Source: Sabellastarte sp. h YS-2021 (Eukaryota > Annelida > Polychaeta > Sabellida > Sabellidae). From it: 64,000 nucleotides of DNA. The stretch is from assembly GCA_964017235.1 (NCBI GenBank), contig OZ024938.1:48396332-48460331 (forward strand), in the 5' to 3' direction. The translations under genes and the position numbers were made by a program. The notes under the pieces are model-generated. The model was not told the DNA's origin and made no database searches. It worked only from the letters and a program-made list of their open reading frames with translations. This document shows positions 17,401 through 64,000 of this stretch, in pieces; the stretch's first letter is position 1, and each line of letters begins with the position of its first letter.

Positions 17401-20400
17401 AAATTTGGTGACAATAGCTCTAATACTTTTCCTTTAAATGAGCGGAAACCATGCGTGACGCCGGACATCGGACGCCGGACGCCGGACGCCGGACATCGGA
17501 CATCGGACGGCGAAAAAAGCAAAAATAATATATCCACCCCCCAGGGGGGTGGACATAATAATACTCACGGCAGACTTATCTGAACAGTTGAGTAGTCTGT
17601 CCTGTAACAAGAAAGAAGTTCCATGTGCTAGCAAGGCATCTCGCTCCATTTCACCAAAACGTATTCCTCCACCTCTTTTCCTACCTTTGATGGGTTGATG
17701 AGTGACTTGGTCTACTGGACCTGTTGTTCTAACCTGCAAGAAAAGTTGTATTAGAAATTTCATGAGCTGTCATCTTAAGGCAGACAGTATCATAGATGGG
17801 ATGAATCTATGAATAACTAACAGTAGTTTAAGATTTCTTGAAATTTATCAAAGGTTGTAACTGCAATTGCATTTACTTGAATTTTTTATACATTACTCCA
17901 AACCTGACAAAGAATTATGTCAGTCCCATACTCCTCTCATGGGATGTAAAACACTGTGTCAGTTGAAATTTTGGCTAGGCATTAATTTTAACTATTTTAG
18001 CTAATGAGCCTGGATAGTGAAAATTACTTCCCAGTGAAATTTTAAATCTATATAAATATCACAAAAAAAAAAAAAACTAGACCTAGCGCATCGGAGAACC
18101 GATGCAAATTGTATCCACCGTAAAGGCAATGCACCAAAACCTCTAGGACCAATAATAAGCGAGTTATAAGCACTTTCAGTTTTGGCTATCCTCATTTGAC
18201 CTTGAAGGAGGGGCCCAAGGTCAAATCCGACCACACCAGAAGATTCCCAGCCAATGATTTTCTATATGCTGGTTTACCATCCCAAACCTCTAGGACCAAT
18301 AATAAGCGAGTTATAAGCACTTTTAAGTTTGGCTGTCCTCGTTTGACCTTGAAGAAGGGGTCCAAGGTCAAATCCGACCACGCCAGATGATTCCCAGCCC
18401 AAGATTTCCTATATGTTGGGTTACCATCCCAAATCTCTAGGACCAATAATAAGCAAGTTATAAGCACTTTTAAGTTTGGCTATCCTCATTTGACCTTGAA
18501 GGAGTGGTCCAAGGTCAAATCCGACCACGCCAGAAGATTCCCAGCCCATGATTTCCTATAAGTTGGTTTACCATCCCAAACCTCTAGGACCAATAATAAG
18601 CAAGTTATAAGCACTTTTAAGTTTGGCTGTCCTCATTTGACCTTGAAGGAGGCGCCCAAGGTCAAATCGGGCCACACCAGAAGATTCCAAGCGCATCATT
18701 CCCTATATGTTGGTTTACCATCCCAAACCTCTACGACCAATAATAAGTGAGTTATAAGCACTTTTGCCTTTGGCTGTCCTCGTTTGACCTTGAATGAGGG
18801 GCCCAAGGTCAAATCCGACCACATAAGAAGATTCCCAGCCCATGATTTTCTATAGGTTGGTTTACCATCCCCAACCTCTAGGACCAATAATAAGCGAGTT
18901 ATAGGCACTTTTACCTTTGGCTATCCTCGTTTGACCTTGAAAGAGGGGCCCAAGGTCAAATCCGACCACACCAGAAGATTCCCAGCCCATGATTTTCTAT
19001 ATGCTGGTTTACCATCCCAAACCTCTAGGACCAATAATAAGCGAGTTATAAGCATTTTTAAGTTTGGCTATCCTCATTTGACCTTGAAGGAGGGTCCCAA
19101 GGTCAAATCCGTCCACACCAGAAGATTCCCAGCCCATGATTTCCTGTATGTTGGTTTACCATCCCAAACCTCTACGACCAATAATGAGCGAGTTATAAGC
19201 ACTTTTAAGTTTGGCTGTCCTCCTTTGACCTTCAATGAGGGGCCCAAGGTCAAATCCGACCTCACCAGAAGATTCCCAGCCCATGATTTTCTATATGTTG
19301 GTTTACCATCCCAAACCTCTACGACCAATAATAAGCGAGTTATAGGCACTTTTACCTTTGGCTATCCTCGTTTGACCTTGAAAGAGGGGCCCAAGGTCAA
19401 ATCCGACCACACCAGAAGATTCCCAGCCAATGATTTTCTATATGCTGGTTTACCATCCCAAACCTCTAGGACCAATAATAAGCCAGTTATAAGCACTTTT
19501 AAGTTTGGCTATCCTCATTTGACCTTGAAGGAGGGGCCCAAGGTCAAATCCGTCCACACCAGAAGATTCCCAGCGCATGATTTCCTATATGTTGGTTTAC
19601 CATCCCAAACCTCTAGGACCAATAATAAGCGAGTTATAAGCACTTTCAGTTTTGGCTATCCTCATTTGACCTTGAAGGAGGGGCCCAAGGTCAAATCCGA
19701 CCACACCAGAAGATTCCCAGCCAATGATTTTCTATATGCTGGTTTACCATCCCAAACCTCTAGGACCAATAATAAGCGAGTTATAAGCACTTTTAAGTTT
19801 GGCTGTCCTCGTTTGACCTTGAAGGAGGGGCCCCAAGGTCAAATCCAACCACGCCAGAAGATTCCCAGCCCATGATTTCCTATATGTTGGTTTACCATCC
19901 CAAACCTCTAGGATCGATAATAAGCGAGTTATAAGCACTTTTAAGTTCTGCTATCCTCGTTTGACCTTGAAGGAGGGGTCCAAGGTCAAATCTGACCACA
20001 TCAGAAGATTCGCAGCACATGATTTCCTATAGCTTGGCTTCACATTGCAAACCTCTAGGACCAATAATAAGGGAGATATAGGCACTTTTAAAGTCCGCTA
20101 TGTGGGTTACTTCGGCACTCCGTGGATGACCTTGAATTAGGAGCTTCAAGGTCAAATGTGTGCAAGGTTGTAGGGGACATGTATATGTGTCATACATATC
20201 ACCTATGAAGAGATTCAACCTTCTATCTATGAGGAACAGCCAGTAGAAAAATGTAGATTATTTTCAAAGAAATGCCTGTGGCGGCCATCTTGTTTTTCAG
20301 AATGAGGCTATTTTCCTTCCCAGAGAAGCTTACCCCCCAATGAAGATATCCTGCAAATTTGGTGAACCTAGCTGCTGTTGTTTTCATCTTAGAGCGTTAA

Positions 20401-23400
20401 CGTCGAAAATCTCTCTACGCGCGGCGGCAGCGGCGTAGCGGACGCTAAACCAAAGTATCCACCGGATGCTTCCGGTGGATACAACAAGCCATTAGTGAAA
20501 ATTAATTCTGGTGAATTTTTTAATGATGAAGTCTGAGTCAAATTTTCTTTTCTAGCTGAAATTTCTACTCATACGGTACCTATGGCAGATACTTGCCAGA
20601 AAATTACTGACACCACTTGTAAGAAGCAAGTGGGTGACTTGAAATTTATCAGACAATACTTTTTAAAATTATCCTGAGACATGCAATTTGAGGTCATATT
20701 TTTGACACGTCACTTACTTGGAACTTATCTGAGACCATGTGTCTGAGTCTTTGATAATACACCACTCCAATGAAGATGTCTGCTTCAAACTCACGTCCAT
20801 ACATCCCACTGTACAGCCGCTCTGTGCCATAGTAGTTGTAACCAGCTGCAAAAAAGTAAGGGAATCCACCTCTATCGTATCTACAGAATAATCTCATCTC
20901 CTTCTTTGTAAGCACAATATCTTCCCCACAAGAGGGAACTCGGTGTGTTAAATTAACAAAAGAATTGACAAAAGGGGTAGTCAAAGATGTTTGGGATCAA
21001 TAATTCAAATCTAGGTTTTGGGCCACACTCCCAAGTACTTTGTGCATCTTGTTTAACCCACAGTTATGTCAAAATTACGTATGTAATGCTGTTAGTTAGA
21101 CAGGACACAAGAACTGTGGAATAGGTTTAACTTCACATCTGTTTAGCAGTATCACATCACCGTCTAGGCTGAAAACAGCTCTCAAATACTATGTGCATCT
21201 TGTATATATAATAATTATGTGAATTGTTCAGCTGAAGTGCTGTACTTTGGATAAGACATCATGAAGTTGGAACTAATAATGCAAGAATATGATTCAGCAA
21301 GAATGTGATAAATCTTTTTCAACCTGAGCTGGTGGCAGCACTCCTAATATTATGCACATCTTGGTTGTAGTAATAAATACCGATTGTGAGGGTGTTTGTT
21401 ACAGGATATATGCCAGCAAAAATTGGGACTTCATGTACATTCACACAGCAAGTGTGTCTTTTTCACTCCATAATCAGGTTAAACATGCATCTGTAATGCT
21501 TAAATTTGGACAGGATATAATGAAGATGACACTACTAATTGTGGAATATCAGCTTTTTATCTAACCTGTAAATCATGTCACTCCTTGTGTAGAGGAACAG
21601 AGCCAGATACCAAGTTAACCTTGATTACTCCACTTTTGTCTCAAAAGGTCATCTGTAATTCTTTACTTTGGACAGAATATGAAGAAGGTGGCACTAATCC
21701 ATCCAAAAAAAGGCTTCATATTTATAAGTGCTGAAGTTATTACCTCTCTCTTGGAGAATCATGTTTAATAACATAATATATTAAGCCTGTAGAGTCATTT
21801 CACCCATTCAGTTGCGGGCCAAATTGAAATACTGTATGCATCTTGTTTACCTCATAACTGTATCAAAAAACCCATCGGTATTGCTATTATTTTAACATGA
21901 TATAAGAAGTGTGATCCTGAAATAAGTTTCAGCCATACCACTATATTTAAAATGTGCTAATATCTTCAAAGAAAAGCCTATTGTTGGGTTCATAAGACTA
22001 CCCAACTTAAGGGACCAACTTATGAAATCAGTAGTTGAATACCCAAAAGATCATCAGATTTCAAAGGAAATAACCCCCAAAATTTGCACCAGATTAGGAA
22101 AATGTACATATTGCCCATTAATAAATAAAATTAATGAAACAAAATGTAGTTTCACAAAACAAACTTATAGGTGCAAAAACCTCCCAAAACACATTACTTG
22201 TGAAATAGAAGATATAATTTATCAAATATCTTGTACCAAATGCCAAAAAGTATACGTAGGAGAGACAGGGAGACCATTTAGAAGAAGAATGTATGAACAT
22301 ATAGCTTCAGTAAAAAATAACTCTAAGACTACACCAGTATCTAGACATTTTTTTCACTGAAGGTCACTCACACAAACACATGAAATTCTCAGTGATAAGA
22401 GTGGTGCAAAACACAACGTGAAAGTGCAGCCACATCCAGGCGTAGAAGAATTGAGCTTGGTTGGATTTTCAAGTTGCACTCTCTTCACCCAATTGGCATC
22501 AACCAATTTGTGTGAAATACTAGGCATTTCAGTCATCACACACTCAGAGACTGGCCCTTTCCATTTTACATTTAAAATCGTGTCACCATCTTGCAGTATA
22601 TATTACGAACACATGAAAATATTGCAAACTGAGCCCTTGAACAGACGGAAACCAACCAGAAAAAGAAGATACTACTGAACAACAAAAAGCCGCGACTGGG
22701 AAGATTGGAAACAATGAATAACAGGACACCTAGATCAACAAACAAGAAAAGCAGAAACTAAACCATTGAGGAATCAGATTTTAACAGGAAACCAATGAAC
22801 AAAAACCATCAAATTTAAGAACATACATGATCACCAAATAGGAAGAAAAAAATTGTATAAAAATTTCACAAATTATACTATCATTATTAGGGGGTGATTC
22901 CTGCAATAATTGTCATGAATATAAACACTAATAATTGTGCCCATAAACCACCAAATACAAGGTTGAATCTAACTGATTCTAAACACTTTCCAACAATATT
23001 TCTTTAAATATATCTCCAGCTCTGTTTCTTGAGTTTGTCATTTATTATTATTTTAGAGATCATTAAATTCTTAGTAATCACTTAATTATAGACAGAGTTA
23101 GCTTAAATACTTTCTATGAGGGTTATTTATTAAGGGACAAGCTGATGAATATTACCCCATATCTACTGAATATATATGCCAAAATCAAAGGTATAGGGCT
23201 TTAGCATTAAATAAGACATAAAAGGCTTACTTTTTCCAAAATACTAGTATACAGGTAAGGTACTGGTTCAAGTATCCAAGCACTAGTTAAGTACTACAAA
23301 ACTGAAGCTTAACAACTTTTCTATGAACACCCTCAATTCATACTAGTTTTTAAGTTATTCTCAAGACAAAATAGAAACAACAGATGTTTCATATAAACAG

Positions 23401-29400: not shown

Positions 29401-32400
29401 AATGATTTGTGTTGAGGAAACCATTTGATCATTTAAAGTAAGACAGTATTGAAAATATATACAAATAAACCAAACTAAGTCTGCAAAATCAAAGGTGTCA
29501 GTTTGTGTTTTATGTCTCATACAATAGAAGGATCATATTGGTACAACCCCTAAGTCTTGCCACTTGTGGGAGTCAAACCCACACCATGGTAACAGTCGGT
29601 GATTACATGCCAAACTTGCTAATCACTAGGCCATCAAAGACATACATGTAACTTAAAAGCTCTTGCCAGAAGGAACCACTTGAGATTACTATTGAGAAAG
29701 AACAGTACAGACACGAGTAATATTGTGTAATGGATGTGTGTGATAAGAATGGCCAAGGATGTGCATTGTATATGAAATTTGATATTTTCATCAAAACAAT
29801 TAAAACGTACTATATTTAAAAGAGACGTTTAATTTAGATGATGGCCTTTTGTGATCCCAGAAGATCCTCAACTAATCTATTCACAAACTCCTTCAATATC
29901 TTCTTCTTGTATGACATACATTATCAAAGCTTTCAATCAGCTTCAATTTATTCTAAGGATTGATAACTGATAGTAGTTTTAAACTGAATATAAAATTTTA
30001 ATTGCTGTTTGTATGTCAATCAATACCGAAACATCACATGACATACCTTGTCTATTTGAATTCAACAAATAACTAAAGCAATGATATAACAAGTCATTGC
30101 TAGCTGTGTCTGGTCACTTCTATAATCTTGTAAGACATGACCCCAAATAAGGATTTGTGTAACTAATCTCACATACCCCTTCAACGGCCTCCTCTGGTAT
30201 AACACAAATGTCCATGTAGACCTGTTCAAAGCTTCCAATCATCTCTGTACATTTGTATGCTAGGTTTGTGACTGGTCTCATCATACGGGCTGGAGTGGTA
30301 AACAGGAACAGACCAGGATACTGAGATGCTTCTTCAGTCTTGGGGACTAAACACACTTCCAACTTGGATGGAACCTGTACAAAATTTAAGTTGGGGAAAT
30401 ACACCCCTTTCAACAGCTAATGGACCAGTTTCACTGTGACAAGTTATCCTCCTAAATGCCCCAAGTTTATGGTCTGTAGCCAAATCATGGGGTACGTATG
30501 ACACCCATTCACATGAGCACTGTTTCTGTCCTTAGTAGTCACGACTGAACTTTCTCATTTCAACTAATTTAAGACAAAGCCTGAGGCTGCTACTACTTGT
30601 CATAGGGTGTTGTGACAAATCAGTAGGCTGTTACAACAAAACATAATTAAAAATATATAATGTGTTTTGTCACAAAGGTAACTTTATTATATGTGTATTT
30701 GTGGCATTATACTATTGTAATGTAAATTAAAACTTATATTTCAAAAATCAAATGAGCTTTCTCATCAAAAGGCTGGTGTGTTAACAAAACCCTATCTCTG
30801 AAGTACTTTTTGGAAAGTGCAATTGCAACCAATCTTCTACATTTCTCCACTAAAATGGATCTAAGAAATCTTGACCAATGAGAAGATCAGCTGTGCAAAG
30901 TTCATCAATTAATCTTTTCTACGGCCGGTTAGTGATTGTGACTTGATGCTTTCACTTATCATAATGAATTGTAGCAGTTAGGGGCAGGTTATAAGACTGA
31001 TCTTTTCAATCATTTGACTGATCTTCCCCTTGGGTAAAAAACATGTTCTGTCAGTTTTCCTGCCCCTTTTTACATAGAATCAGTTGTAGCAGTCTTCAGA
31101 GTTATAAATCAGTTTTTACAATAAGTCTTGGAAGTGAAACTAAGGCCAGAGGTGAGATCTGGGGCTGTATTATAGAATAGAATAGAAACATTTATATAGC
31201 GCAAAATTGATGCAACATCCTCTAATGCGCTTGAAATCAAAAAGGGAAAGTCGAGGGACGTTCGAGGTCATGATCCAAGGTTAGCGCCCGCCAGGGAGAT
31301 GTACTATGGTGGAGGATATGCTAATCTAAACAAGTAGGTCTTTAGCTGGCTACGGAAACCTGTTATTGTTTGTTGTGATCGTACTGATTGTGGGAGTCTG
31401 TTCCATTCTATGGGGGAAGCCACTGCAAAACCTCTCCTACCGATGGCCTTTTTGTGAGAGGCTGAGGAAAGAGAAAGACGATTTCCACGTGTTAGACAAC
31501 TGGTTTTGATCAAGGATGATAGGTATATGGGTTGAGAGAAATTTATAGCCTTGAAAGTAATTAGATTGTACTTAAACAATATACGGTAAGTGATAGGAAG
31601 CCAGTGTAGTTTTTGAAGAAAAGGAGTGACATGGCTAGTTCTATCAAGTCTAAAAACAATTCTACAAAGGGCATTTTGTATCTTTTGGAGTTTAGCAACA
31701 TTGTACTTACTGATGCCATAAAGTAGGGAATTGCAGTAGTCAAGTCGACTACTGATCATTGAGTTTGCAAGCAAGGCTGCAGTTTCCACACTGAGGAATT
31801 TACGGATACGTCTTAGGTCCTTAAGGTGGTAGTAGCAGGCTCGACACATATTAGTTATGTGGTTGGAAAAGGTGTTTCCAGAGTCAAAAATTACACCCAG
31901 GTTCTTGACTGTATCAGTAGGGGAAATAGAATTTCCGAGAAGTTGAGTAGGGAATTTATTTATGAGGGACTCTCTGGCTTGTCTATCACCTATTATAATA
32001 AATTCAGTTTTCTCGGGATTGAGTTTCAATTTCACGCCAGCCATCCAGTTTTGGATACATGTGAGACACTCTGTAAGCTCAGCGAAACTGGAATCAAAAT
32101 TCCTATTGTCCAATGCTAGATATATTTGGGTGTCATCAGCATATAGATGGTGGGTGACATTGAAATTGGAAGCGATATTACTGAGAGGGGTTGTGTAAAG
32201 GGTAAAAAGGAGGGGGCCCAGGACAGAGCCCTGAGGCACACCATACGGAAGTGAGAACACATCTGAAAAGCTATTTCCTAATTTAACCTTCTGTTTCCGG
32301 TTTGAGAGATAGGATCTGATCCACCTCAACACAGTGCCATCAACCCCAAACCAATCTCTTAGGGAATTAAAAAGAATGTCATGGTCGATAGTGTCGAATG

Positions 32401-53400: not shown

Positions 53401-55323
53401 TTTTCTAAAATACTTTTGACAATATTTAAAGTGAAATTTTAAACTTTAGAATTAACTTGTTATGCAAGATCAATGCATTATACAATTTTAGCCTATTTTA
53501 TTTCACTCATAAACGTTTTTGAGAATAAAAACTAATCGATGTAAAAATAGTACACATAGGATTTCCCAAAAACTTCCATGATGACGTCATCCTGACAACA
53601 GTGGCTATGGTAACTTTTTTATTCATGTTTAAAAATACTCGGTGGAGAAAGCAACTTTTACTTTTGAATATTTTTTAAATTGAAATATTCCAGCTGCATT
53701 AATTACAATAATACTTCATCCACAAAATAAGAAGGAAATCACAAAATATTTTGATATTTTTTTTATTTATTACATTGTCTTTGTTCTATTTTTTCTATTG
53801 AGTTTTTAATAACCACAGCTGTATTTGCCAGTGTAGGTGATTTGTGTTAGATCATGTTAGCTTTAAAAAGATACACTATTTGTAAAAACCAGGCAATAAA
53901 TAAGAATTTCATAATTTATTTTACTGATTCCCTTTTTGTACCGCAAAACCTTCTGATGATGGGGTTAGCATAGCCTGGTCTATTTTTAGGTACCCATGTC
54001 ATTGAAATTTTTAAGTTTTATTTTTATGTAAAACCCCCTTTTAAGATAAAAAATTGATAGAAATGTATGCTATATATTAAATACGTAGACAGATTTTAAA
54101 AAATCATATTTATATTGTGTTATATTGGGGGCCCAATTGCTGTCGCATTTTCAATAATTTTCTCATTTTGCATTATTCAAAAAAAAAGTTCTGTTAAACT
54201 GATAAAATATTTATTTTTGTTTTAGTTACTGGTTTATTTTATAAATATATTTGTTAGACGACTTTATATATGTTTTCTTATCCAACACCTTGCAACTACG
54301 AATCACGGCTTATAAAACTTGTATGGTGATCCATGGTGTTTTCGTGTTAGAAAATAATTAATCATGATTTCTGATGGTTTTACAAAAGTACTTTGATTTT
54401 TGATACTTAAAATGTATAAAATAGCTGGATTTAAACAAATATATTTGTTAAGAATGAATATTTTCATCAATAAGATTATATTTGTGGAATGTCATTCAGA
54501 GTATTTACTGTGGAGTTTTCATGCTACATGATCTTGGTCTCAATAAAAGATGCTTCATTATTGTTGAAAACATAAAAACCCTTGGAAGACATGTAAAAAC
54601 ATTAATTATGCTAGAAAATAATTAAAATGTAACACTTGTTCTATTTATGTACTGCCTTGCTACCAATTATCGCCGGGTACCAATTACCGCCAGGCAAAAT
54701 TCAGATAGACACAACTTGTCAAATAGTACCTTCCAAGTGTAGTAAATACAGTATAACTATTTCCAAACTGATTCAAACAAATACACATCAAAAGACTTTG
54801 AAGATATTTAGCTGCTAATGAAATATGAACATTTTATTTCTTGGTGGCGGTAATTGGTACCCGGCGATAATTGGTAGCAAGGCAGTATCTATTTTTGCCA
54901 GTTAACTGAGATATATAGTCTCTAAAACTTGAAAGACAATAAATATTTTGCTAGAAATTTCAAATAGCATTTATTTTTGCTTCTCAAGAAAATTCAGGCA
55001 TCAAAACAAATTAAAATCGCATTTTTCATCAAAATGCAATAATATATGGCAGTATTTGATCATAAACCTATGGTAAATAGAAGAAATAGCTGTAGCACTA
55101 AAACTCCACAGACATGAAAACTCCACAGATGACCATATTTGGTGGCCCAATCGCTGTCGCCCCGTGTATTCCACGTTTTGGGCGATAATATAAGGATAAC
55201 TAAATATACGATAAAATAGGTAGGTAAACAACGATCATAGAGCAAAACCTGTAATTGAAACTTGCTAGGTCGTCCAAAATCTTTAGAGGTAATATTTTTC
55301 AATGAGGGTTCCTTTTTAAACAT
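11262..55323 (-). CDS. POLR1B: DNA-directed RNA polymerase I subunit RPA2 (28 coding exons)
   Basis: This is the second-largest, beta-like subunit of nucleolar RNA polymerase I, which makes the large rRNA precursor. Joined exons 55249-55323, 51949-52026, 51577-51636, 50425-50499, 49687-49806, 49003-49143, 47942-48040, 46250-46345, 44795-44871, 43839-43985, 42690-42743, 41661-41778, 40423-40510, 39331-39437, 37246-37381, 35862-35935, 34832-35038, 30177-30374, 29278-29385, 28492-28668, 27059-27191, 26563-26659, 25619-25819, 24861-24958, 23791-23916, 20718-20845, 17569-17733 and 11262-11486 give 1135 residues. All introns are GT-AG and all phases agree. Family landmarks are [10 protein letters not shown] (about 493), KQTMG (689), [11 protein letters not shown] (746, acidic pair E750/D751), [12 protein letters not shown] (875, lysines K877 and K885 matching the active-site lysines of RPB2), [10 protein letters not shown] (1029) and a C-terminal zinc ribbon. 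No stop or frameshift was seen, so the gene looks functional. Confidence 0.96.
11521..11823 (-). repeat. three decayed copies of the POLR1B exon-28 start
   Basis: Units at about 11521-11620, 11623-11723 and 11725-11823, period about 101 bp, are tandem with 11418-11518, which covers the intron end and the first coding bases of exon 28. The copy nearest the exon still encodes [20 protein letters not shown] on the minus strand. The second keeps an acceptor-like TTTTCACAG but reaches a stop after 13 codons. Confidence 0.75.
11824..12339. other. intron sequence, nothing recognised
   Basis: Part of POLR1B intron 27 between the exon-derived repeats and the satellite. No motif, repeat or coding signal was seen. 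Confidence 0.4.
12340..17105 (+). repeat. 169-bp satellite array, about 28 monomers
   Basis: Each monomer runs from a GTGGGTCGAAAATTT segment through GGAGATAGAAGCAAATT, CCATTTTTGGCAAAAATTCG, AAAATGGCCGCCATTTTTGG and GAGGGGAAAATTTTT. The first four or so monomers are diverged, the rest are more than 95% alike. Two types recur: one with GCAAAGATTGCATTCCTTAG, the other with ACCAAGAGCACAATGCTCAG. 169 is not a multiple of three, so the overlapping open frames of 60-106 codons are by-products. Every monomer has GCCGCCATTTT, the YY1 consensus on the opposite strand. The array lies in POLR1B intron 27. Confidence 0.95.
17106..17454. repeat. unique flank between the satellite and its GC-rich end
   Basis: Non-tandem sequence such as CAATCCCAAGCAAGCTACTG and TTTGGTGACAATAGC that leads to the GC-rich tail. 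It contains two related halves (17125-17290 and 17297-17445: ACTGAAAATA, GCAA..CAAGC.AGCTA). Probably part of the element carrying the array. Confidence 0.5.
17455..17562 (+). mobile_element. GC-rich tail and terminal hairpin of the satellite element
   Basis: 17458-17513 is an imperfect GGACGCC/GGACATC minisatellite. After a short A-rich stretch comes a hairpin, TCCACCCCCC-A-GGGGGGTGGA, at about 17533-17553. The layout equals the ends of the elements at 20400-20482 and 62126-62192. The hairpin lies just below exon 27. Confidence 0.7.
17569..17733 (-). CDS. POLR1B: POLR1B exon 27 (hybrid-binding region)
   Basis: Residues 1007-1061, [20 protein letters not shown] then [16 protein letters not shown] and [10 protein letters not shown]. 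Donor GCC|GTGAGT lies only 6 bp above the hairpin that ends the 169-bp satellite element. Confidence 0.98.
17734..18074. other. intron sequence, nothing recognised
   Basis: POLR1B intron 26 next to exon 27. It ends in an A-run at 18063-18075 where the tandem-core element begins. Confidence 0.4.
18075..20482 (+). mobile_element. hairpin-ended element with 147-bp tandem core, copy 1
   Basis: The left end CTAGACCTAGCGCATCGG carries a 7-bp hairpin GCATCGG-AGAA-CCGATGC. The core, about 18140-20100, has about 14 units of 147 bp (CCTCTAGGACCAATAATAAG, TTATAAGCACTTTTAAGTTT, TTTGACCTTGAAGGAGGGGC, CAGAAGATTCCCAGCCCATG). A conserved right flank follows, with GCGGCCATCTTGTTTTTCAG and a GCGGCGGCAGCGGCG block. 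The right end, 20455-20482, is a perfect hairpin with stem GTATCCACCGGA, loop TGCT. No transposase is present. The architecture resembles non-autonomous Helentron-type elements and bivalve tandem-core elements. It lies in POLR1B intron 26. Confidence 0.85.
20718..20845 (-). CDS. POLR1B: POLR1B exon 26
   Basis: Residues about 964-1006, [16 protein letters not shown] then [19 protein letters not shown]. Donor CAA|GTAAGT. The same frame runs into intron sequence beyond the acceptor, so the exon is bounded at TTTGCAG. Confidence 0.98.
20846..21964. repeat. degenerate tandem repeats in intron 25
   Basis: About five diverged units share ATGTGCATCTTGT (about 21049, 21199, 21354, 21838) followed by CATCTGTAATGCTT and CTTTGGACAGGATAT..GAAG. 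Unit length varies between about 150 and 250 bp. A fragment of the 6562 palindrome (AATAAATACCGATTGTGAGG) is inserted at 21369-21430. Confidence 0.5.
21965..22440 (+). mobile_element. Penelope-like element fragment, GIY-YIG endonuclease
   Basis: The plus strand encodes [15 protein letters not shown], then cysteine pairs CTYC and [15 protein letters not shown], then [18 protein letters not shown] and PVSRHFF. This is the linker and GIY-YIG domain at the C-terminus of Penelope-like retroelements (VYVGETG is the YIG motif, R and H follow). A frameshift after HFFH moves the reading to [19 protein letters not shown]. No reverse transcriptase precedes it. A dead fragment in POLR1B intron 25. Confidence 0.85.
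22441..23790. other. intron sequence, nothing recognised
   Basis: AT-rich remainder of POLR1B intron 25 after the Penelope-like fragment. No exon-like or repeat structure was recognised. Confidence 0.4.
23791..23916 (-). CDS. POLR1B: POLR1B exon 25
   Basis: Residues about 922-964, [20 protein letters not shown] then [12 protein letters not shown]. Donor G|GTAAGT, phase 1. Confidence 0.97.
24454..24757. repeat. insert between perfect 34-bp direct repeats
   Basis: The same 34 bp (beginning ATTCTGTTTTACATGAACG) occur at 24454-24487 and 24724-24757. The 236 bp between them end GTGAGGATAAGG..AAGG.TATTTTA.GCAATAAAAA, also the end of an element at 59140-59175. Either an insertion with a long target-site duplication or a tandem duplication. 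In POLR1B intron 24. Confidence 0.7.
24861..24958 (-). CDS. POLR1B: POLR1B exon 24
   Basis: Residues about 889-922, [20 protein letters not shown] then PSRMTIG, nearly identical to vertebrate RPA2. Ends in phase 1. Confidence 0.97.
25316..25550. repeat. AAATTTAAGG-iterated self-complementary repeat
   Basis: The palindrome-like CCTTAAATTTAAGG and variants recur at least four times (about 25350, 25385, 25490, 25520). The segment ends CTGAAACTGGGCCC. In POLR1B intron 23. Confidence 0.5.
25619..25819 (-). CDS. POLR1B: POLR1B exon 23 (active-site lysines)
   Basis: Residues about 822-889, ending [20 protein letters not shown]877 and K885 match the conserved active-site lysines of beta subunits. 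Donor AG|GTAAGT, phase 2. Confidence 0.97.
26177..26361. mobile_element. TA-flanked MITE, TIR TTCTAACATGAT
   Basis: TA precedes TTCTAACATGAT and follows ATCATGTTAGAA; inverted ends of 12 bp, 185 bp long, no coding. An imperfect palindrome (about 26364-26455: GATATAAACCC..CATGC and GGCATATCCCTATATC) follows at once. In POLR1B intron 22. Confidence 0.75.
26563..26659 (-). CDS. POLR1B: POLR1B exon 22
   Basis: Residues about 790-822, [20 protein letters not shown], matching [20 protein letters not shown]. Phases 1 and 2 fit both neighbours. Confidence 0.94.
27059..27191 (-). CDS. POLR1B: POLR1B exon 21 (active-site acidic pair)
   Basis: Residues 746 to about 790, [19 protein letters not shown]750/D751 sit where the RPB2 acidic residues near the active site lie. 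Ends in phase 1 at G|GTAAGT. Confidence 0.98.
27657..27886 (+). mobile_element. tRNA-derived SINE with 10-bp TSD
   Basis: A tRNA-like head has an A box (TGACAGAGTGG) and a B box (GGTTCGGTTCC), followed by a body (GGTAGTTGCTTGCCGTTGG, GTCGTGATATGACCTGTACA) and an AAAT-type tail. It is flanked by TAGAGAATGG at 27647-27656 and 27887-27896, a perfect target-site duplication. In POLR1B intron 20. Confidence 0.92.
28492..28668 (-). CDS. POLR1B: POLR1B exon 20
   Basis: Residues 687-745, starting MGKQTMG, then [17 protein letters not shown] and [12 protein letters not shown]. Donor ACT|GTGAGT, phase 0. Confidence 0.97.
29278..29385 (-). CDS. POLR1B: POLR1B exon 19
   Basis: Residues 651-686, [26 protein letters not shown]; a near-identical block occurs in vertebrate RPA2. 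Donor CAG|GTAAGG, phase 0. Confidence 0.98.
29546..29635 (-). repeat. tRNA-like SINE head
   Basis: On the minus strand an A-box-like TGGCCTAGTGATTAG is followed by a B-box-like GGTTTGACTCCC. It does not fold into a convincing tRNA, so it is taken as a SINE head, a family different from the one at 27657. Confidence 0.45.
30177..30374 (-). CDS. POLR1B: POLR1B exon 18
   Basis: Residues 585-650, [20 protein letters not shown] then [11 protein letters not shown], matching [20 protein letters not shown]. The donor is GGG|GTATGT, chosen because it keeps the family's G-V junction. Confidence 0.96.
30375..31150. other. intron sequence before the LINE
   Basis: POLR1B intron 17, AT-rich. Near 31152-31170 GGGGCTGTATTATAGAATA mirrors GTTACAGAATACAGCCCA at 34012-34029, so the LINE may have inserted into an older inverted-repeat element. 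Confidence 0.35.
31170..33846 (-). mobile_element. 5'-truncated CR1/jockey-like LINE, ORF2 broken
   Basis: A non-LTR retrotransposon in POLR1B intron 17. The minus strand begins inside an endonuclease domain (33846: [28 protein letters not shown]). After a frameshift near 33180-33190 it continues into a reverse transcriptase (31304 to about 33180) with [54 protein letters not shown] and [12 protein letters not shown]. The C-terminus ends FRLAYPPP. No ORF1 and no endonuclease N-terminus remain, so it was 5'-truncated on insertion. The 3' end is ATTCTATTC-like instead of poly-A. Apart from the frameshift the RT is open for 577 codons, which suggests a fairly recent copy. Confidence 0.93.
33847..34030. 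repeat. TTAGATTT/AAATCTAA-iterated repeat beside the LINE
   Basis: Iterates CTTAGAT, TTCAAG, TTTTAAG and their complements and ends GTTACAGAATACAGCCC, much like the ends of the repeats at 25316 and 57750. Confidence 0.4.
34832..35038 (-). CDS. POLR1B: POLR1B exon 17
   Basis: Residues 516-584, with [16 protein letters not shown], matching CYPVLLDGVMVGWVDK. Donor AAT|GTGAGT. The intron that follows is 4.5 kb and carries the LINE. Confidence 0.95.
35272..35670. mobile_element. TA-flanked MITE, TIR TTCTAACATGAC
   Basis: TA at 35270-35271 and 35671-35672 flanks inverted ends TTCTAACATGAC and GTCATGTTAGAA; 399 bp. Same family ends as 26177. In POLR1B intron 16. Confidence 0.8.
35673..35816. mobile_element. 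palindromic hairpin element
   Basis: Near-perfect palindrome of 144 bp: GAAATAGACAAC at the left, GTTGTCTATTTC at the right, inner arms GTGTTATAGGAGATTTTACA and complement, loop GGCTTCGCC. TA on both sides, the left TA shared with the preceding MITE. It ends 45 bp below exon 16. Confidence 0.85.
35862..35935 (-). CDS. POLR1B: POLR1B exon 16
   Basis: Residues about 491-515, [19 protein letters not shown], one of the most diagnostic blocks of the family. Donor CAT|GTGAGT. Confidence 0.98.
35999..36245. mobile_element. TIR element, ends TGAGTTTCTGTCCC
   Basis: Inverted ends of 14 bp continue as imperfect arms of about 60 bp (ATCGCACATTAC.., GACGGTACGCAATGGCGAGG and complement). 247 bp, no coding. 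In POLR1B intron 15. Confidence 0.75.
37000..37195 (-). repeat. tRNA-headed SINE-like repeat
   Basis: On the minus strand CTGCCACTGTGGCCTAGTGG gives an A box and CTGGGTTCAAACCCAGG gives a perfect B box about 45 bp later. The body continues down to about 37000. It differs from the 27657 family. It ends about 50 bp before the exon-15 donor. Confidence 0.6.
37246..37381 (-). CDS. POLR1B: POLR1B exon 15
   Basis: Residues 446 to about 491, [20 protein letters not shown] through [14 protein letters not shown]. This is the fork region of beta-like subunits. Donor TGGG|GTGGGT, phase 1. Confidence 0.97.
37844..38072 (-). mobile_element. tRNA-derived SINE with 16-bp TSD
   Basis: Same family as 27657, opposite orientation: A box and B box (GGGGTTCGATCCCCGG on the minus strand) near 38070-38000 and an ATAAAT tail at 37844. 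It is flanked by CCACAGTGCTGATGAA at 37828-37843 and CCACAGTGCTAATGAA at 38073-38088, one mismatch. In POLR1B intron 14. Confidence 0.9.
38089..39330. other. intron sequence with a C16/A13 tract
   Basis: AT-rich intron 14. 39160-39188 is 16 C followed by 13 A and an A/T tail. Nothing else recognised. Confidence 0.5.
39331..39437 (-). CDS. POLR1B: POLR1B exon 14
   Basis: Residues about 410-445, with [20 protein letters not shown], matching FEYLFATGNLRSKTGLGLLQ. The donor CAG|GTCTGC is unusually weak. Confidence 0.95.
39438..41660. other. introns 12-13, nothing recognised outside exon 13
   Basis: Apart from POLR1B exon 13 I see no repeat or coding signal that I can name. 40905-41470 has overlapping open frames on both strands and balanced composition, but no splice-supported exon or family motif. 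Confidence 0.35.
40423..40510 (-). CDS. POLR1B: POLR1B exon 13
   Basis: Residues 381 to about 410, [20 protein letters not shown], matching EKLEGWLVSIKIAFDKKAQK. Ends in phase 1 at G|GTAAGT. Confidence 0.93.
41661..41778 (-). CDS. POLR1B: POLR1B exon 12
   Basis: Residues about 341-380, [14 protein letters not shown] then [12 protein letters not shown], matching LMTRKLFALAKGEC. Donor AAG|GTAAGT. Confidence 0.96.
41840..42065 (+). repeat. 5S-rRNA-derived SINE-like repeat, copy 2
   Basis: The best 5S match in the window: AGTGGCGTAGCATGATGAG, then AAAGTTAAGCAGCAATGGGC, then TTAGTACTTGGGGATGGGTG and ATCACCT. A leader GCTTCTAGAGATCAC and GTCTCCAGACTTTCATGAAT precedes it, and ACTACTCATGTCTCTGATGG follows. 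In POLR1B intron 11. Confidence 0.7.
42690..42743 (-). CDS. POLR1B: POLR1B exon 11
   Basis: The shortest exon, 54 nt, residues about 323-341. It encodes [17 protein letters not shown], matching QCICIHLKSNTEKFYML. Phase 2 at both ends; donor GT|GTAAGT. Confidence 0.92.
43055..43760. mobile_element. foldback element with TCTGTCGACAGA palindromes
   Basis: Left arm 43055-43235 and right arm 43500-43760 are inverted copies: TGTCGTGACAGAACTTCC-type ends and a perfect inverted CAAATACAAGGATTGG / CCAATCCTTGTATTTG. Within the arms the palindrome TTCTGTCGACAGAA recurs about seven times. The middle 270 bp are AT-rich. In POLR1B intron 10. Confidence 0.8.
43839..43985 (-). CDS. POLR1B: POLR1B exon 10
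   Basis: Residues about 274-323, containing [15 protein letters not shown] and VAEFLL, matching YLGECFRVKL and AAEFLF. Phase 2 at both ends. A large foldback element starts about 80 bp below it, in intron 10. Confidence 0.95.
43986..44794. other. intron 9, nothing recognised
   Basis: AT-rich sequence without repeats or exon signals that I can name. Confidence 0.4.
44795..44871 (-). CDS. POLR1B: POLR1B exon 9
   Basis: Residues 249-274, [20 protein letters not shown], matching [20 protein letters not shown]. It ends in phase 2 at donor GG|GTGAGT. Confidence 0.94.
44872..46249. other. intron 8, nothing recognised
   Basis: AT-rich. A short stretch near 45340-45425 repeats TATTGAAAT several times. 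No exon was seen. Confidence 0.4.
46250..46345 (-). CDS. POLR1B: POLR1B exon 8
   Basis: Residues 217-248, [13 protein letters not shown] then [10 protein letters not shown], matching NLHYLENGTV and YRKELFFLPL of vertebrates. Acceptor CTGCAG, donor AAG|GTAAAG. Confidence 0.94.
46375..46650 (-). repeat. degenerate 5S-SINE-like fragment
   Basis: The minus strand of 46380-46480 reads TTTTGTCTCCAAACTTTCAA and GAATTGTGCACTACTCTAGTA, similar to the leader of the copies at 41840 and 52262. GGCCTTCGCTTCTAGAGATC (minus, about 46630-46650) is also shared. The 5S core is not recognisable here. Confidence 0.4.
46931..47353. mobile_element. TA-flanked MITE, TIR TTCTAAAATGG
   Basis: TA at 46929-46930 and 47354-47355 flanks TTCTAAAATGG and CCATTTTAGAA; 423 bp, no coding. 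The ends are close to the TTCTAACATGA ends at 26177 and 35272. In POLR1B intron 7. Confidence 0.75.
47356..47459. mobile_element. hairpin element abutting the MITE
   Basis: GGAATAAAAGACA at the left and TGTCTTTTATTCC at the right, TA on each side, 104 bp, imperfect inner arms, centre GGGCTTCGTGGC. Followed directly by a truncated copy of the 6562 palindrome (47461-47562). Confidence 0.7.
47942..48040 (-). CDS. POLR1B: POLR1B exon 7
   Basis: Residues 184-216, starting [20 protein letters not shown], matching PIAMIRPKWKTRGPGYTQYG. It lies 28 bp below the start of an inverted-repeat element at 48069. Confidence 0.95.
48069..48310. mobile_element. long-TIR MITE, ends GGAACTTCACCTGTCC
   Basis: TA-flanked, arms of about 85 bp (TCTTCACCCGTATCCGTGTC, ATACCCTAGATCTTTTGGTA and complements), 242 bp. 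It lies 28 bp above exon 7. A second, diverged copy is at 57014-57373. Confidence 0.85.
48311..49002. other. intron 6, nothing recognised
   Basis: Very AT-rich. No exon, RNA gene or inverted repeat that I can name. Confidence 0.4.
49003..49143 (-). CDS. POLR1B: POLR1B exon 6
   Basis: Residues 137-183, including [17 protein letters not shown] and [10 protein letters not shown], a very conserved block of the protrusion domain. Donor TAT|GTAAGT. Confidence 0.97.
49687..49806 (-). CDS. POLR1B: POLR1B exon 5
   Basis: Residues 97-136. It begins [10 protein letters not shown] and ends VPVMVK, matching CRGRRSTYRG and VPIMVK of vertebrates. The donor AAG|GTGGGG is non-optimal, but phase and protein continuity support it. 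Confidence 0.94.
49807..51576. other. introns 3-4, nothing recognised outside exon 4
   Basis: AT-rich. A pair of similar stretches at 50935-51070 and 51390-51500 (GACATGCTTTTGT, ATAGACAAGTATTCTATA, TTTGCACTGGACACA) suggests an old local duplication of about 450 bp offset. Confidence 0.4.
50425..50499 (-). CDS. POLR1B: POLR1B exon 4
   Basis: Residues 72-96, ending in KVYPAE, equal to the vertebrate NVYPAECR junction. Acceptor CTACAG and donor GAG|GTGAGT, phase 0. Confidence 0.92.
51577..51636 (-). CDS. POLR1B: POLR1B exon 3
   Basis: Residues 52-71, [20 protein letters not shown], matching the vertebrate PPFEFAFKDERIS region. Acceptor TTTCAG and donor CAT|GTAAGT, phase 0 on both sides. Confidence 0.92.
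51949..52026 (-). CDS. POLR1B: POLR1B exon 2
   Basis: Residues 26-51, containing [15 protein letters not shown], the conserved N-terminal helix of beta-like subunits (vertebrate RAHVESFNY). The acceptor is TTACAG and the donor AAG|GTAGCA, both phase 0. Confidence 0.95.
52262..52440 (-). repeat. 5S-rRNA-derived SINE-like repeat, copy 3
   Basis: The minus strand reads GCTCGCACTTCCAGGCC, a T-run, GTCTCCGGACTTTCATGAAT, GTGGTGTAGTGTGGGGAG and GAAGTTAAGTGGCAATGGGC. It stops inside the 5S-like part, so the 3' portion is missing. In POLR1B intron 1. Confidence 0.6.
53358..55166. mobile_element. 1.8-kb TA-flanked inverted-repeat element
   Basis: TA precedes CACGGGGTGACAGCGATTGG (53358) and follows its inverse CCAATCGCTGTCGCCCCGTG (ending 55166); 23-bp ends, one mismatch. 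A 17-bp part of the left end is duplicated at once (GTGACAGCGATTGGGCC), and a third, diverged copy GGCCCAATTGCTGTCGC is internal near 54131. No transposase frame remains. A second element is nested at 54652. In POLR1B intron 1, 82 bp from the exon-1 donor. Confidence 0.82.
54652..54885. mobile_element. nested MITE with perfect 41-bp TIRs
   Basis: 54652-54692 and 54845-54885 are perfect inverted copies of 41 bp, starting CTGCCTTGCTACCAATTATC. TA lies on each side, 234 bp in all. The identity of the ends suggests recent insertion into the larger element. Confidence 0.92.
55249..55323 (-). CDS. POLR1B: POLR1B exon 1 (start codon)
   Basis: Residues 1-25. It opens at the ATG at 55323 ([17 protein letters not shown]), which resembles the vertebrate SLKHLT..SYG start. 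The donor CAG|GTTTTG is weak but phase 0, matching exon 2. No upstream untranslated exon was identified. Confidence 0.85.
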
Positions 55324-56726: not shown

Positions 56727-56728
56727 CA

Positions 56729-56762
<34 letters not shown>

Positions 56763-57003
56763 GGGGGGTGTCACGTTAGCGAACTGGACATCCATAGCGA
56801 ACGGCAATCTGTCATAACATTTAAAAGATAGATAGCAGGGGCACAGGGTTCCAACACCCACTTATTTCAATATATGAATAAATAAATGATCATCTAACCA
56901 CTGCATGGTGATCGAACCCTATCCCCCTCCTGTCTATTGTTTTAAATGTCATGGTAGATTGCCGTTCGCTATGGCTGTCCTGTTCGCTAACGTGACCCCC
57001 CCT
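56727..57003. mobile_element. long-TIR MITE with an expanded G-run
   Basis: Arms of about 90 bp: GTGTCACGTTAGCGAAC, CATAGCGAACGGCAATCT and the complements at 56955-57000. The left end carries 33 consecutive G (56729-56761) before AGGGGGG, while the matching right end has only 7 C. Confidence 0.8.
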
Positions 57004-57013
57004 TATATAAGCA

Positions 57014-57960: not shown

Positions 57961-58074
57961 TACTGTGTAACCAAGAGAAAATTAAGGTGCAACAGGTTTA
58001 CACAAGTGAAATCACCCCAGAATCAGGTTTGAGAAATTAAACATTCTAATACAAGAAAAAATTAAATTTTACAG

Positions 58075-58200
58075 GGGTGGACTCTAAGGTATAAACAACA
58101 AAATTGCATAAGCTAACTAAAAAAAACCATTTAAACAAAGGTAATCATGACATTTGTTACAAGGTTTGTGCAATTTTGTTGTTTATAACACTAAGACATA
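58075..58200. repeat. short inverted repeat
   Basis: GTATAAACAACAAAATTGCA near 58090 and its near-complement TGCAATTTTGTTGTTTATAA near 58168. A diverged relative of the right half is at 57528-57620 (TGTGCAGTTTTGTTATTTAC, GTTTATCTTTGTGACCACCC). Confidence 0.45.
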
Positions 58201-58274
58201 CAAATCTCTGAACACTGTTTATCTTTGTGTCCAGTTTATCTTTGTGTCCACCCATGTAGAGCTTAATTTCTTAC

Positions 58275-58938: not shown

Positions 58939-59175
58939 CCTTATCCTCACATGGATAAGCCCACCCTACCTCCCTACATTTGTTTTGCTGGGGACCCAAA
59001 AATACAGTGAAGAATTCTCAACAACTTTTTGCAGACTATGATCACTGCGCAAGTGTGGAGATGCACAGACAAGAGGTCACCCCTGAAAAGAATAATTTTT
59101 TAAAAAAATTTTGTTTTTGCTCCACAAAACTAAACAATTGTGAGGATAAGGCAAGGCTATTTTATGCAATAAAAA
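58939..59175. mobile_element. element with 12-bp inverted ends
   Basis: CCTTATCCTCAC at 58939-58950 and GTGAGGATAAGG at 59140-59151, followed by AAGGCTATTTTATGCAATAA. The tail matches the insert at 24454-24757. Confidence 0.5.
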
Positions 59176-59854
59176 TATTTATACACCAAATTAAATTTGA
59201 AAAAAAGAAACATGTGTTTTCTTCTTTCAGATGATGAAATTGCGTTCCCAGTCCTGCACCTTCCTAGTACTGTTTGGTGGATCTTTCCTTTTTGCAGTAC
59301 TAGTATACCTGCCATTTTTTAATTTACGAAGTATGTGGCTTTTGGTGCCTTTTGAGAGGATCCAAGTCTTTAAAGAGTAAAGTGATAAATTATTTGGAGT
59401 GTATAATTCAGAAAAGGAAATTATTTTTTTCTAAAACAGTAGTTTGTAAATTCACATAAACTTTGTTATTAAAGTCAGCATATTTGTAACATTCATTGTT
59501 ACATTTCTCTGTATTTTGTGGTTAAAATGGTAATACTCTGACATCATTTCAGTATTGTATAATTCTTCTTGATTTTGAATCACTTTGCTTAGTTGATGAT
59601 ATTGATGGAAACCATACAGTGATTATATCAGACTGTCTAGCATCAAAATAGCATTGTGTTATTGAATGCACAAACTGAGTTGGATGTATCTTGATATCCG
59701 TACATTATGTTCTATTCATATTTGGAGTGTCATATAAAATTACAAAAAGATAAAACAATAAAAAACTTTGGCTCTGCCGGAATATGTTATATTGCCACAC
59801 TTAAGACATATTTCTCCTGTCACAAAGCTATATGGATTGCTGCAACTGATTATT
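59176..59854. other. intergenic, nothing recognised
   Basis: AT-rich sequence without exon or repeat signals that I can name. Confidence 0.4.
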
Positions 59855-62103
59855 GTATCCACCAGAAGCATCCGGTGGATACTTTGGTTTAGTGTTCGCT
59901 ACGTTGCCACCGCGTGTAGAGAGATTTTCGGCGTTAACGCTCTAAGAGGAAAACTACACCAGCTAGGTTCACCAAATTTGCAGAATATCTTCATTGGGGG
60001 GTAGGCTTCTTTGGGAATGAAAATAGCCTCATTCTGAAAAACAAGATGGCCACCGCGGGCATTTCTTTGAAAATAATCTACATTTTTCTACTGGCTGTTT
60101 CTCATAGGTAGAAGGTTGAATCTCTTCATAGGTGATATGTATAACAGATATACCTGTCCTCTACAACCTTGCACACATTTGACCTTGAAGCTCTTAATTT
60201 AAGGTCAACCACAGAGTGCCAAAGTAACCCACATAGCGGACTTTAAAAGTGCCTATATCTCCCTTATTATTGGTCCTAGAGGTTTGCAATGTGAAACCAA
60301 CCTATAGGAAATCATGTGCTGCGAATCTACTGATGTTGTCAGATTTGACCTTGGACCCCTCCTTCAAGGTCAAACGAGGATAGCCATACTTAAGATGCTT
60401 ATAACTCGCTTATTATCGGTCCTAGAGGTTTGGGATGGTAAACCAACATAAAGGAAATCATGGGCTGGGAATCTTCTGGTATGGTCGGATTTGACCTTGG
60501 GGCCCCTCTTTCAAGGTCAAATGAGGATAGCCAAACTTAAAACTGCTTATAACTCGCATATTATTGGTCCTAGAGGTTTGGGATGGTAAACCAACCTATA
60601 GGAAATCATTGGCTGGGAATCTTCTGGTGTGGTCGGATTTGACCTTGGGCCCCTCCTTCAAGGTCAAACGAGGATAGCCAAACTTAAAACTGCTTATAAT
60701 TCACTTATTATTGGTCACAGAGGTTTGGGATGGTAAACCAACTTATAGAAACTCATGGGCTGGGAATCTGTTTGTGTGGTCAGATTTGGCCTTGGTCCCC
60801 TTGTTCAAGGTCAAACGAGGATAGCCAAACTTAAAAGTGCTTATAACTCGCTTATTATTGGTCGTAGAGGTTTGGGATAGTAAACTGACCCATAGGAAAT
60901 CATGAGCTAGGAATCTTTTGGTGTGGTCAGATTTGACCTTGGGCCCCTCCTTCAAGGTCAAACGAGGATAGCCAAACTTAAAACTGCTTATAACTCGCTT
61001 ATTATTGATCCTAGAGGTTTGGGATGGTAACCAACATATAGGAAATCATCGGCTGGGAATCATTTGGTTTGGTCAGATTTGACCTTGGGCCCCTTGTTCA
61101 AGGTCAAACGAGGATAGCCAAACTTAAAAGTACTTATAACTCGCTTATTATTGGTCCTCGAGGTTTGGGATTGTAAACCAACCTATAGGAAATCATGGGC
61201 TGGGAATCTTTTGGTGTGGTCAGATTTGACCTTGGGCCCCTCCTTCAAGGTCAAACGAGGATAGCCAAACTTAAAACTGCTTATAACTCGCTTATTATTG
61301 ATCCTACAGGTTTGGGATGGTAACCAACATATAGGAAATCATCGGCTGGGAATCATTTGGTTTGGTCAGATTTGACCTTGGGCCCCTTGTTCAAGGTCAA
61401 ACGAGGATAGCCAAACTTAAAAGTACTTATAACTCGCTTATTATTGGTCCTCGAGGTTTGGGATTGTAAACCAACCTATAGGAAATCATGGGCTGGGAAT
61501 CTTTTGGTGGTCGGATTTGACCTTGGGCCCCTCCTTCAAGGTCAAACGAGGATAGCAAAGCTTAAAAGTGTTTATAACTTGCTTATTATTGGTCCTAGAG
61601 GTTTGGGATGGTAAACCAGCCTATAGAAAATCATGGGCAGGGAATCTTTTGGTGTGGTCAGATTTGACCTTGGGTTCCTCCTTCAAGGTCAAACGAGGAT
61701 AGCCAAACTTAAAAGTGCTTATAACTCGCTTATTATTGGTCCTAGAGGTTTGGGATGGTAAATAACTCGCTTATTATTGGTCCTAGAGGTTTGGGATGGT
61801 AAACCAACCTATAGGAACTCATGAGCTGGGAATCTTTTGGTGTGGTTGGATTTGACCTTGGGCCCCTCCTTCAAGGTCAAACAAGGATAGCCAAACTTAA
61901 AACTGCTTATAACTCGCTTATTATTGATCCTAGAGGTTTACAGTACGAAACCAACTCATACGAAATCTTGGGCTAGGAATCTTCTGATGTTAGATTTAAC
62001 CTTTGGCCCCCTCCTTCAAGGTCAAACGATGGTTCACTGGCTTTGGTGAGTTGTCTTTCCAGTGGATAGAAATTTGCATCAGTTCTCCGATGCATAGGTC
62101 TAG
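59855..62103 (-). mobile_element. hairpin-ended element with 147-bp tandem core, copy 2
   Basis: Inverted relative to copy 1 at 18075-20482. The hairpin end is 59855-59882 (GTATCCACC..GGTGGATAC, one mismatch), then the conserved flank (about 59890-60190), then about 13 tandem units (60190-62030), then the other end with GCATCAGTTCTCCGATGC and CTAGACCTA (minus). Units here differ from copy 1 by scattered changes, and one short partial unit is duplicated near 61750-61800. Confidence 0.85.
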
Positions 62104-62125
62104 TTATATTTACTTTTAACTAATT

Positions 62126-64000
62126 ATATCCCCAGACGAAAGTCGGGGATATATTGGATTCAGGTCCGTCGCGCCGCCGCCGCCGCCGCCGTAGAAATTT
62201 CCTTGTGGACGCGATAACTCAAAAACAAATTAATATTTTTTTTTCAAACTTGGTACACATGTTAAGGGTGCCCAAAGGAAGATCCCTATTTTAAGGTGAC
62301 CTTAAACTCCCAGTAAAAAAGAACTTATGGCCACCTTAAGGTCAGAAATTGCACTTTTGGCCACTTAGAGCCCTGTAGGTCACAAACTATGATGCTCAGC
62401 TGGCTGAAATTTTACCTGACAACACATTAATATGTTCTTAGTACATGTGCCGAAAATCATGACTTTAAGTTGAGGAGAAAATTGTGTTTGAGGCCCATAA
62501 ATACCCCCACTTAGGGATTTTTTGCTATACTTTTCACATATTTTGCCCTATAATTTGGAAGTGATAATTCTGATGAGTCTCAAACTGCGCTAGGTATAAC
62601 TTTGATATGTAATCCTTGTCTGTAGAAAATTTTAGGGCTGTAGGTTTACCCAAAGGGGTCGACTTAAGGTCTCAAAAGTGCCCACAGAGACCCAATTTAT
62701 GCACTTTTTGTCACTTTCAAGCACTGTAGCTTTCAAACTATGTCTCTCATCTAAGTTAAATATCATCTGGGAATATATCTATGTGTTTTCTTATATGTGC
62801 CCCAACATTTAGGCCTTTAATAGACAGTTAACCTGTGTATCAGGACCATAAACACCCACCCGAGTGACCCTTATAAGACATTTTTCACATCTTTTTCCCT
62901 GTAACTTGGAAATGGTAAGTCTGAGAAGTTTCAAACTGTATTAGATATATATTCTGTGTGTAATCTTAGTATGTAACAGATTTTAAGTCTGAAGCATTAA
63001 TTTTGAAGGTCAAATTGAGGTCTCTAAAAGGCTCCCAAAGACCCAATATTTGGACTTTTTGCTACTTTTAAGCCCTGTGACTGTCAAACTATGTGACTGA
63101 TAGAGCTCAAATCCTATCTGAGAAGATATTAGTATGTTATTTTTATATGTGCCAAAAATTAAGGCTTTAAGAAGACATTTAACCTGTGTATGAGGACCAT
63201 AAATCCCCACCCGAGTGACCATTTTTAGACATTTTTCACATATTTTTCCCTGTAACTTGGAAATGGTAAGTCTAAGAAGTTTCAAACTGTATTAGATGCA
63301 TATTCTATGTGTAATCTTAGTATGTGACAAATTTTAAGTTTGAAGCTTTAATTTGAAGGCCACATTTAGGTCTCTAGAAGGCCCCATAAAGACCCAGTAT
63401 TTGGACTTTTTGCCAATTTTAAGGCCTGTGACTGTTAAACTATGTGACTGATAGAGCTGAAATCTCATCTGGGAATACATTGTTATGTTCTTTTTACATG
63501 TGCCAAAAATCAAGGCTTCAAGTAGACATTTAACCTGTGTATGAGGACCTTAAACACCCACCTGAGTGACCCTTTTAAGACATTTTTCACATATTTTGCT
63601 CTGTAACTTGGAAGTGGTAAGTCTGAGAAGTTTCAAACTTTATTAGATACATATTCTATGTGTAATCTTAGTATGTAACAAATTTTAAGTCTGAAGCTTT
63701 AATTTGAAAGCCACATCGAGATCTCTAAAAGGCCCACAGAGACCCAATATTTGGACTTTTTACCACCTTTAAGCCCTGTAACTGTTAAACTATGTGATTG
63801 ATGGAGCTGAAATCCCATCTGGGAATGCATTATTATGTCCTTTTTACATATGCCGAAAATCAAGGTTTTTAGTAGACATTTAACCTGTGTATGAGGGCCA
63901 TAGACACTCGCCCAAGTGCCTTTTTTGACATTTTTTCCGTATTTTGCCCTGTTATTTGGAAATGCTTAGTGTGACAAGTCTTAAACTGTATTATATATAA
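62126..64000 (+). mobile_element. hairpin-ended element with about 350-bp tandem core (partial)
   Basis: Hairpin ATATCCCC..GGGGATAT at 62126-62152, a GCC-triplet run at 62170-62192, then about five units of 340-353 bp marked by GACCCAATATTTGGACTTTT (about 62690, 63042, 63394, 63740), AAGCCCTGTGACTGT, ACATTTAACCTGTGTATGAG and TTTTTCACATATTTTGCCCT. It runs off the window. Confidence 0.8.

Follow-up and report, generated by a model that had tools for sequence, protein, structure and literature searches.

Putative Helentron-type elements with unrelated satellite-like arrays in a 64-kb stretch of a sabellid annelid genome

A stretch of 64,000 nucleotides from the annelid Sabellastarte sp. h YS-2021 (assembly GCA_964017235.1, contig OZ024938.1, positions 48,396,332 to 48,460,331; hereafter the window) contains four array-bearing units, E1, E2a, E2b and E3, whose sequence features indicate, with a probability of about 0.92, that they are HINEs, that is, non-autonomous Helentron-type rolling-circle elements (Table 1). 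E1 carries an array of 169-bp monomers, E2a and E2b are two copies of a 147-bp family, and E3, which we call HINE-like since its assignment derives from the 5′ end alone, carries a 351-bp array. Five features by which HINEs are recognized were found, some of them weakly in single copies.

Structured ends on both sides of the arrays

Reading inward from the 5′ end, all four copies display the same order: TT/RTRTCC, a subterminal inverted repeat (subTIR) with an inverted repeat (IR) hairpin, a short CpG-rich block, a leader, and a satellite-like array. A first-pass annotation, made from the sequence alone, had described a common order of core, flank, GC-rich block and hairpin, and this order was seen in four array copies (one 169-bp, two 147-bp, and one 351-bp). 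The 5′ subTIR has its own inverted repeat in 4 of 4 copies, each of the four hairpins is more stable than its shuffles (z = -3.3, -7.0, -5.5 and -4.1), and TT directly precedes the 5′ end in every case. The signature TTRTRTCC followed by 6 to 30 nt and GGAYAY has four matches in the 64 kb, all four at array-bearing 5′ ends, compared to a mean of 0.22 and a maximum of 2 in 100 dinucleotide shuffles; having been derived from these same ends, the signature demonstrates specificity rather than independent discovery. Scanned in 30-nt windows, the 64 kb shows its three strongest peaks of CpG in the blocks of E3, E2a and E1. According to the first-pass annotation, hairpins lying at random distances from the array in other copies would have spoken against its proposal. 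Within the window the distance ranges from 272 to 410 bp over the four copies, and the two 147-bp copies agree closely (364 bp and 361 bp), a result in favor of the proposal.

Stable stems as such occur more widely. Seven perfect stems of at least 8 bp with at least 4 G/C were detected in the window, of which two are 5′ ends (E1 and E2a), one lies in the E2a flank and four lie elsewhere, the hairpins of E2b and E3 falling outside this list by one mismatch and one bulge, respectively. Stems of 8 bp with at least 5 G/C occupy five bins in the window compared to 0 to 1 in 10 shuffles, and not all of them are at array ends. An inverted TCCACCC pair at 58075/58247 was rejected as a candidate because it is without a HINE-like hairpin.

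The first-pass annotation left the far end undescribed. Three copies have it inside the window, and each of them shows there, on the 3′ side, a second subTIR with a separate palindrome behind it; this subTIR is exact in E1 and E2a and decayed in E2b. The exact 10-nt inverse of the element's own 5′ end is present in both E1 and E2a, and for each of them 0 of 2,000 random stretches gave a match (260-nt stretches of the window, element ends excluded). The subTIR pairs are family-specific, ATGTCC going with GGACAT and GTATCC with GGATAC. A subTIR-like motif, relaxed so that E2b qualified, matches the window 11 times, and the three matches that precede a hairpin all stand at the far side of an array. 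In the 147-bp family, similarity detected with blastn spans TTGTATCC (TT/GTATCC) to CTAG/TT, where the family terminates; beyond these boundaries it extends only a few nucleotides into the flanks, at most 14 nt past CTAG, and both copies are T-rich there. All three copies have TT right after CTAG, the E1 end being assumed at that place. The 3′ boundary of E1 is tentative, because it is based only on TCTAGTT shared with E2, located 78 nt past the subTIR versus 34 nt in E2.

The hairpin end is thus present as a terminal layout in 4 of 4 copies, and it is one of two structured ends. The earlier assignment to non-autonomous elements of Helentron type is backed by three features beyond those that the annotation named: a subTIR at either end, with exact agreement in E1 and E2a, the 3′ palindrome, and TT next to the ends. 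Because they are flanked by two structured ends in the three copies with both ends visible, the arrays look like internal cargo, and the earlier proposal that the machinery carries whatever array lies adjacent finds no support here. A related explanation, near that wording, in which one end only is recognized and the neighboring array is carried by read-through, would agree with the 5′ layout being the best conserved part; we consider it very unlikely, given that the far side is bounded by a subTIR-like motif plus palindrome in 3 of 3 visible copies and that both 147-bp copies terminate at the same place.

Inverted similarity between the two ends would also be expected of cut-and-paste miniature inverted-repeat transposable elements (MITEs) containing tandem repeats, with a terminal inverted repeat transposase acting on both ends, and the related Pearl elements were first called MITEs before being re-categorized as non-autonomous Helentrons (PMC7492417). 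The ends are, however, asymmetric, with a separate palindrome on the 3′ side and 34 nt past the subTIR in E2, and the 25-nt flanks are T-rich on both sides with no target duplication visible; a MITE origin is therefore highly unlikely. Finally, the 169-bp and 351-bp families are each found once in the window, as could be the case if ordinary dispersed satellite arrays lay by chance near hairpins and GC-rich DNA and no mobile unit existed. This we regard as exceedingly unlikely, since similarity between the two 147-bp copies takes in both flanks as far as structured boundaries and the 5′ signature is restricted to array ends in the window. Canonical Helitron ends, described as 5′ TC, 3′ CTRR and insertion between A and T (PMC4067079), were rejected because RTRTCC follows TT in 4 of 4 copies; the 3′ CTAG of E2a and E2b is compatible with CTRR, but the base preceding the element is T, not A.

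Related leaders above unrelated arrays

The cores had been described as lacking visible similarity, and our comparison agrees: no monomer similarity clearly above chance was found among the three families, 144, 21 and 46 of 300 mononucleotide shuffles reaching the observed scores (one sampled monomer per family, both orientations). The leaders gave a different picture. For the 90 nt after the microsatellite, none of 3,000 random 90-nt stretches reached the score between E1 and E2, with either E2a or E2b and in global or local alignment. Judged by their sequence, the E1 and E2 leaders are homologous, and for this pair the idea that every leader arose separately was dropped. The earlier description of the elements as unrelated consequently stands for the monomers and fails for the leaders of E1 and E2. 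A local match between E2 and E3 beats 300 of 300 shuffles and was rejected as homology because it is located in the GC-rich microsatellite; in the same shuffle comparison 5 of 300 reached the E1/E2 score and 220 of 300 the E1/E3 score.

Between its leader module and the 169-bp array, E1 contains two diverged repeat copies about 157 bp apart, with 73.7% identity over 99 nt, which are perhaps an older array or the remnant of one. Because E1 (169 bp) and E2 (147 bp) share the leader and not the monomer, and E1 keeps this perhaps older repeat pair, the 5′ module consisting of hairpin, CpG microsatellite and 90-nt leader may be the unit of inheritance, with arrays replaced beneath it, and one Rep/helicase could serve families with diverged subTIRs and co-varying ends. 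To this proposal we give somewhat less than even odds.

Several observations weigh against the HINE assignment or parts of it. No Rep or helicase was found with Pfam in any of the 36 open reading frames (ORFs) of at least 100 aa in the window. The E3 leader is unrelated to the others by the random-stretch test, the fraction of random stretches reaching its scores being 0.10-0.27 (E1/E3), 0.08-0.35 (E2a/E3) and 0.19-0.71 (E2b/E3). The palindrome region of E1 is no more stable than its shuffles (z = -1.06 and -0.90). The 3′ subTIR of E2b, with 7 of 10 positions matching, is equalled or bettered by 0.351 of random stretches and is not above chance when taken alone. Lastly, the mite HINE families described in PMC4067079 have 38-60 nt from the 3′ subTIR to the end and 8-35 nt from the palindrome. 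The corresponding distances to CTAG are 78 nt (E1) and 34 nt (E2a and E2b) from the subTIR, outside the mite range, and 61 nt (E1) and 10-11 nt (E2) from the palindrome.

If these units are HINEs, then by what is established for Helentrons a Helentron Rep/helicase encoded elsewhere would act in trans to nick the 5′ end; one strand would be displaced from there through the array, halting at the 3′ palindrome, and would be joined into a T-rich target that is not duplicated. Different arrays would have come to lie under the related leaders of E1 and E2. A single Rep/helicase might recognize the GC block plus hairpin. In the Helitron Helraiser, a hairpin near the 3′ end was identified experimentally as the transposition terminator (PMC4778049), and by likeness to this element, which is not a Helentron, we infer that the 3′ hairpin may be the terminator in E1, E2a and E2b.

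Table 1. Coordinates of the four elements and their parts in the window
Feature	Coordinates	Strand	Remarks
E1, HINE with 169-bp array	12127..17556	-	5′ end 17556; 3′ end tentatively CTAG at 12127-12130
E1 5′ subTIR and IR hairpin, ATGTCCACCCCCC / GGGGGGTGGATAT	17530..17556	-	
E1 CpG-rich microsatellite	17457..17512	-	units GGCGTCC / GATGTCC
E1 leader	17121..17456	-	contains module homologous to E2 leader
E1 169-bp tandem array	12345..17120	-	28.4 copies; Tandem Repeats Finder
E1 3′ subTIR GGGTGGACAT	12205..12214	-	exact inverse of E1 first 10 nt
E1 3′ palindrome ACACAT-GATA-ATGTGT	12188..12203	-	
E2a, HINE with 147-bp array	18077..20482	-	between two exons of RNA polymerase I second-largest subunit gene
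E2a 5′ subTIR and IR hairpin	20455..20482	-	perfect 12-bp stem
E2a CpG-rich block	20414..20445	-	
E2a 147-bp array	18137..20091	-	13.3 copies; Tandem Repeats Finder
E2a 3′ subTIR CGGTGGATAC	18111..18120	-	exact inverse of E2a first 10 nt
E2a 3′ palindrome GCATCGG-TTCT-CCGATGC	18088..18105	-	z -4.53
E2b, HINE, second 147-bp copy	59855..62103	+	5′ flank ~92% identical to E2a
E2b 5′ subTIR and IR hairpin	59855..59882	+	one mismatch
E2b GC-rich block	59896..59918	+	eroded, GC 0.61
E2b 147-bp array	60243..61939	+	Tandem Repeats Finder: 10.4 copies at 60243-61762, further row to 61939
E2b 3′ subTIR	62060..62069	+	decayed, 3/10 mismatches to own 5′ end
E2b 3′ palindrome	62076..62093	+	one mismatch, z -2.11; then GGTCTAG at 62097-62103
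E3, HINE-like element with 351-bp array	62126..64000	+	3′ end beyond window
E3 5′ subTIR and IR hairpin, ATATCCCC...GGGGATAT	62126..62152	+	one bulge
E3 CpG-rich (GCC)n microsatellite	62167..62192	+	
E3 351-bp array	62424..63997	+	4.5 copies up to window end; Tandem Repeats Finder

Coding content and genomic setting

The elements, E3 being seen in part, hold 11 ORFs of 100 aa or more, 10 of them in arrays and one mostly in the E1 leader. Ten of these 11 are without a Pfam family match at E 0.01. The match of a 339-aa ORF across the E2a array to RFX5_N (26.6 bits summed, cut-off 25) was dismissed as a repeat artefact, as no single stretch passes. By Pfam, and for ORFs of this size, the elements show no coding capacity, in keeping with HINEs. 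The mobile-element domains in ORFs of the window are those of a reverse transcriptase, an endonuclease (below threshold) and GIY-YIG, none of them Rep or helicase. No tRNA was detected in the window, and Rfam gave no match at gathering score. Copies elsewhere were sought in viral, prokaryote and phage sequence collections, where no match was obtained; given the viral and prokaryote content of these collections, the absence says little.

The window also contains minus-strand exons of the gene for the second-largest subunit of RNA polymerase I, recognized by Pfam Rpb2_6, Rpb2_7 and Rpa2_4 (the last below cut-off), and the best-matching solved chains for these exons are RPA2. The exons matching Rpb2_6 and Rpb2_7 lie on either side of E2a. 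E1 starts 12 nt beyond the point where the Rpb2_7 exon probably ends, with the intron beginning GTGAGTATTATT (17568-17557, taken from the end of similarity), and both elements share the orientation of the gene. On the other side of the window E2b and E3 are arranged head to tail, with 22 nt from CTAG to ATATCC.

The 147-bp monomers (18137-20154 and 60170-62030) carry an inverted pair TTTGACCTTGA...CAAGGTCAAA, read by eye, which we take to resemble nuclear-receptor half sites, and the E2a flank has a hairpin of this type with a perfect 10-bp stem at 20127-20154. The 147-bp register of the E2b array is disrupted at 61721-61803, where 41 bp are duplicated exactly in tandem.

Other repeats were noted in the window. 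Remains of a non-LTR (long terminal repeat) retrotransposon at 31307-33849 on the minus strand, inside the span of the polymerase gene, include a reverse transcriptase domain (E 3.4e-36) and, in an overlapping frame, an endonuclease domain below threshold (23.3 bits, cut-off 27.4). An ORF at 21926-22357 on the plus strand has a GIY-YIG domain (E 1.8e-5, above cut-off) and is possibly a fragment of a Penelope-like element. A run of about 40 G adjoining a 63-nt inverted repeat with 90% complementarity (56729-57002) is MITE-like, and inverted repeats at 54650-54887 and 48066-48313, whose arms (43 and 41 nt) are 100% complementary, are possibly young MITEs. A 150-nt inverted repeat (91% complementary) with 2.1 kb between its arms lies at 2428-4848, and at 43057-43754 direct and inverted repeats are nested around CTGTCGACAGAA in a complex palindromic cluster.

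Comparison with known systems

The HINE and DINE-1 elements described in PMC4067079 resemble the present ones in having subTIRs, of which the 5′ one is palindromic or has an inverted repeat nearby, a 3′ palindrome and a T-rich insertion site, and some of them contain microsatellite or tandem repeats. They differ in the 3′ spacings (34 nt in E2 and 78 nt in E1, compared to 38-60 nt in mites). The Pearl elements of Crassostrea virginica (for example CvA, CvE and CvG), likened here by description and not by sequence, likewise hold varied sequences in one structure, with central repeats of about 160 bp (PMC7492417, PMC11136912).

The closest resemblance is to the Cg_HINEs of Crassostrea gigas, again by layout and not by sequence: a left module of subTIR, IR and microsatellite, a satellite-like array, a right module of subTIR and palindrome, and a TT target (PMC7492417). 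As presented in that paper, the 11 Cg_HINEs have unrelated arrays in different families, two elements carry double arrays, and Cg_HINE_3 and _6 form one group in which related flanks lie over unrelated arrays, a situation common to these elements and to E1 and E2. With 28.4 monomers, the E1 array is about as long as the longest C. gigas array reported there (29.3), whereas the 351-bp monomer of E3 exceeds the 13 clusters tabulated (138-181 bp). The authors could relate none of 10 autonomous elements of C. gigas to the Cg_HINEs (PMC7492417). The carriage of unrelated tandem repeats between matching ends of HINEs is a phenomenon already published for the oyster in 2020 (PMC7492417), to which the window adds a clear case of satellite repeats dispersed by elements, with differing arrays under a related leader beside the exons of a housekeeping gene.

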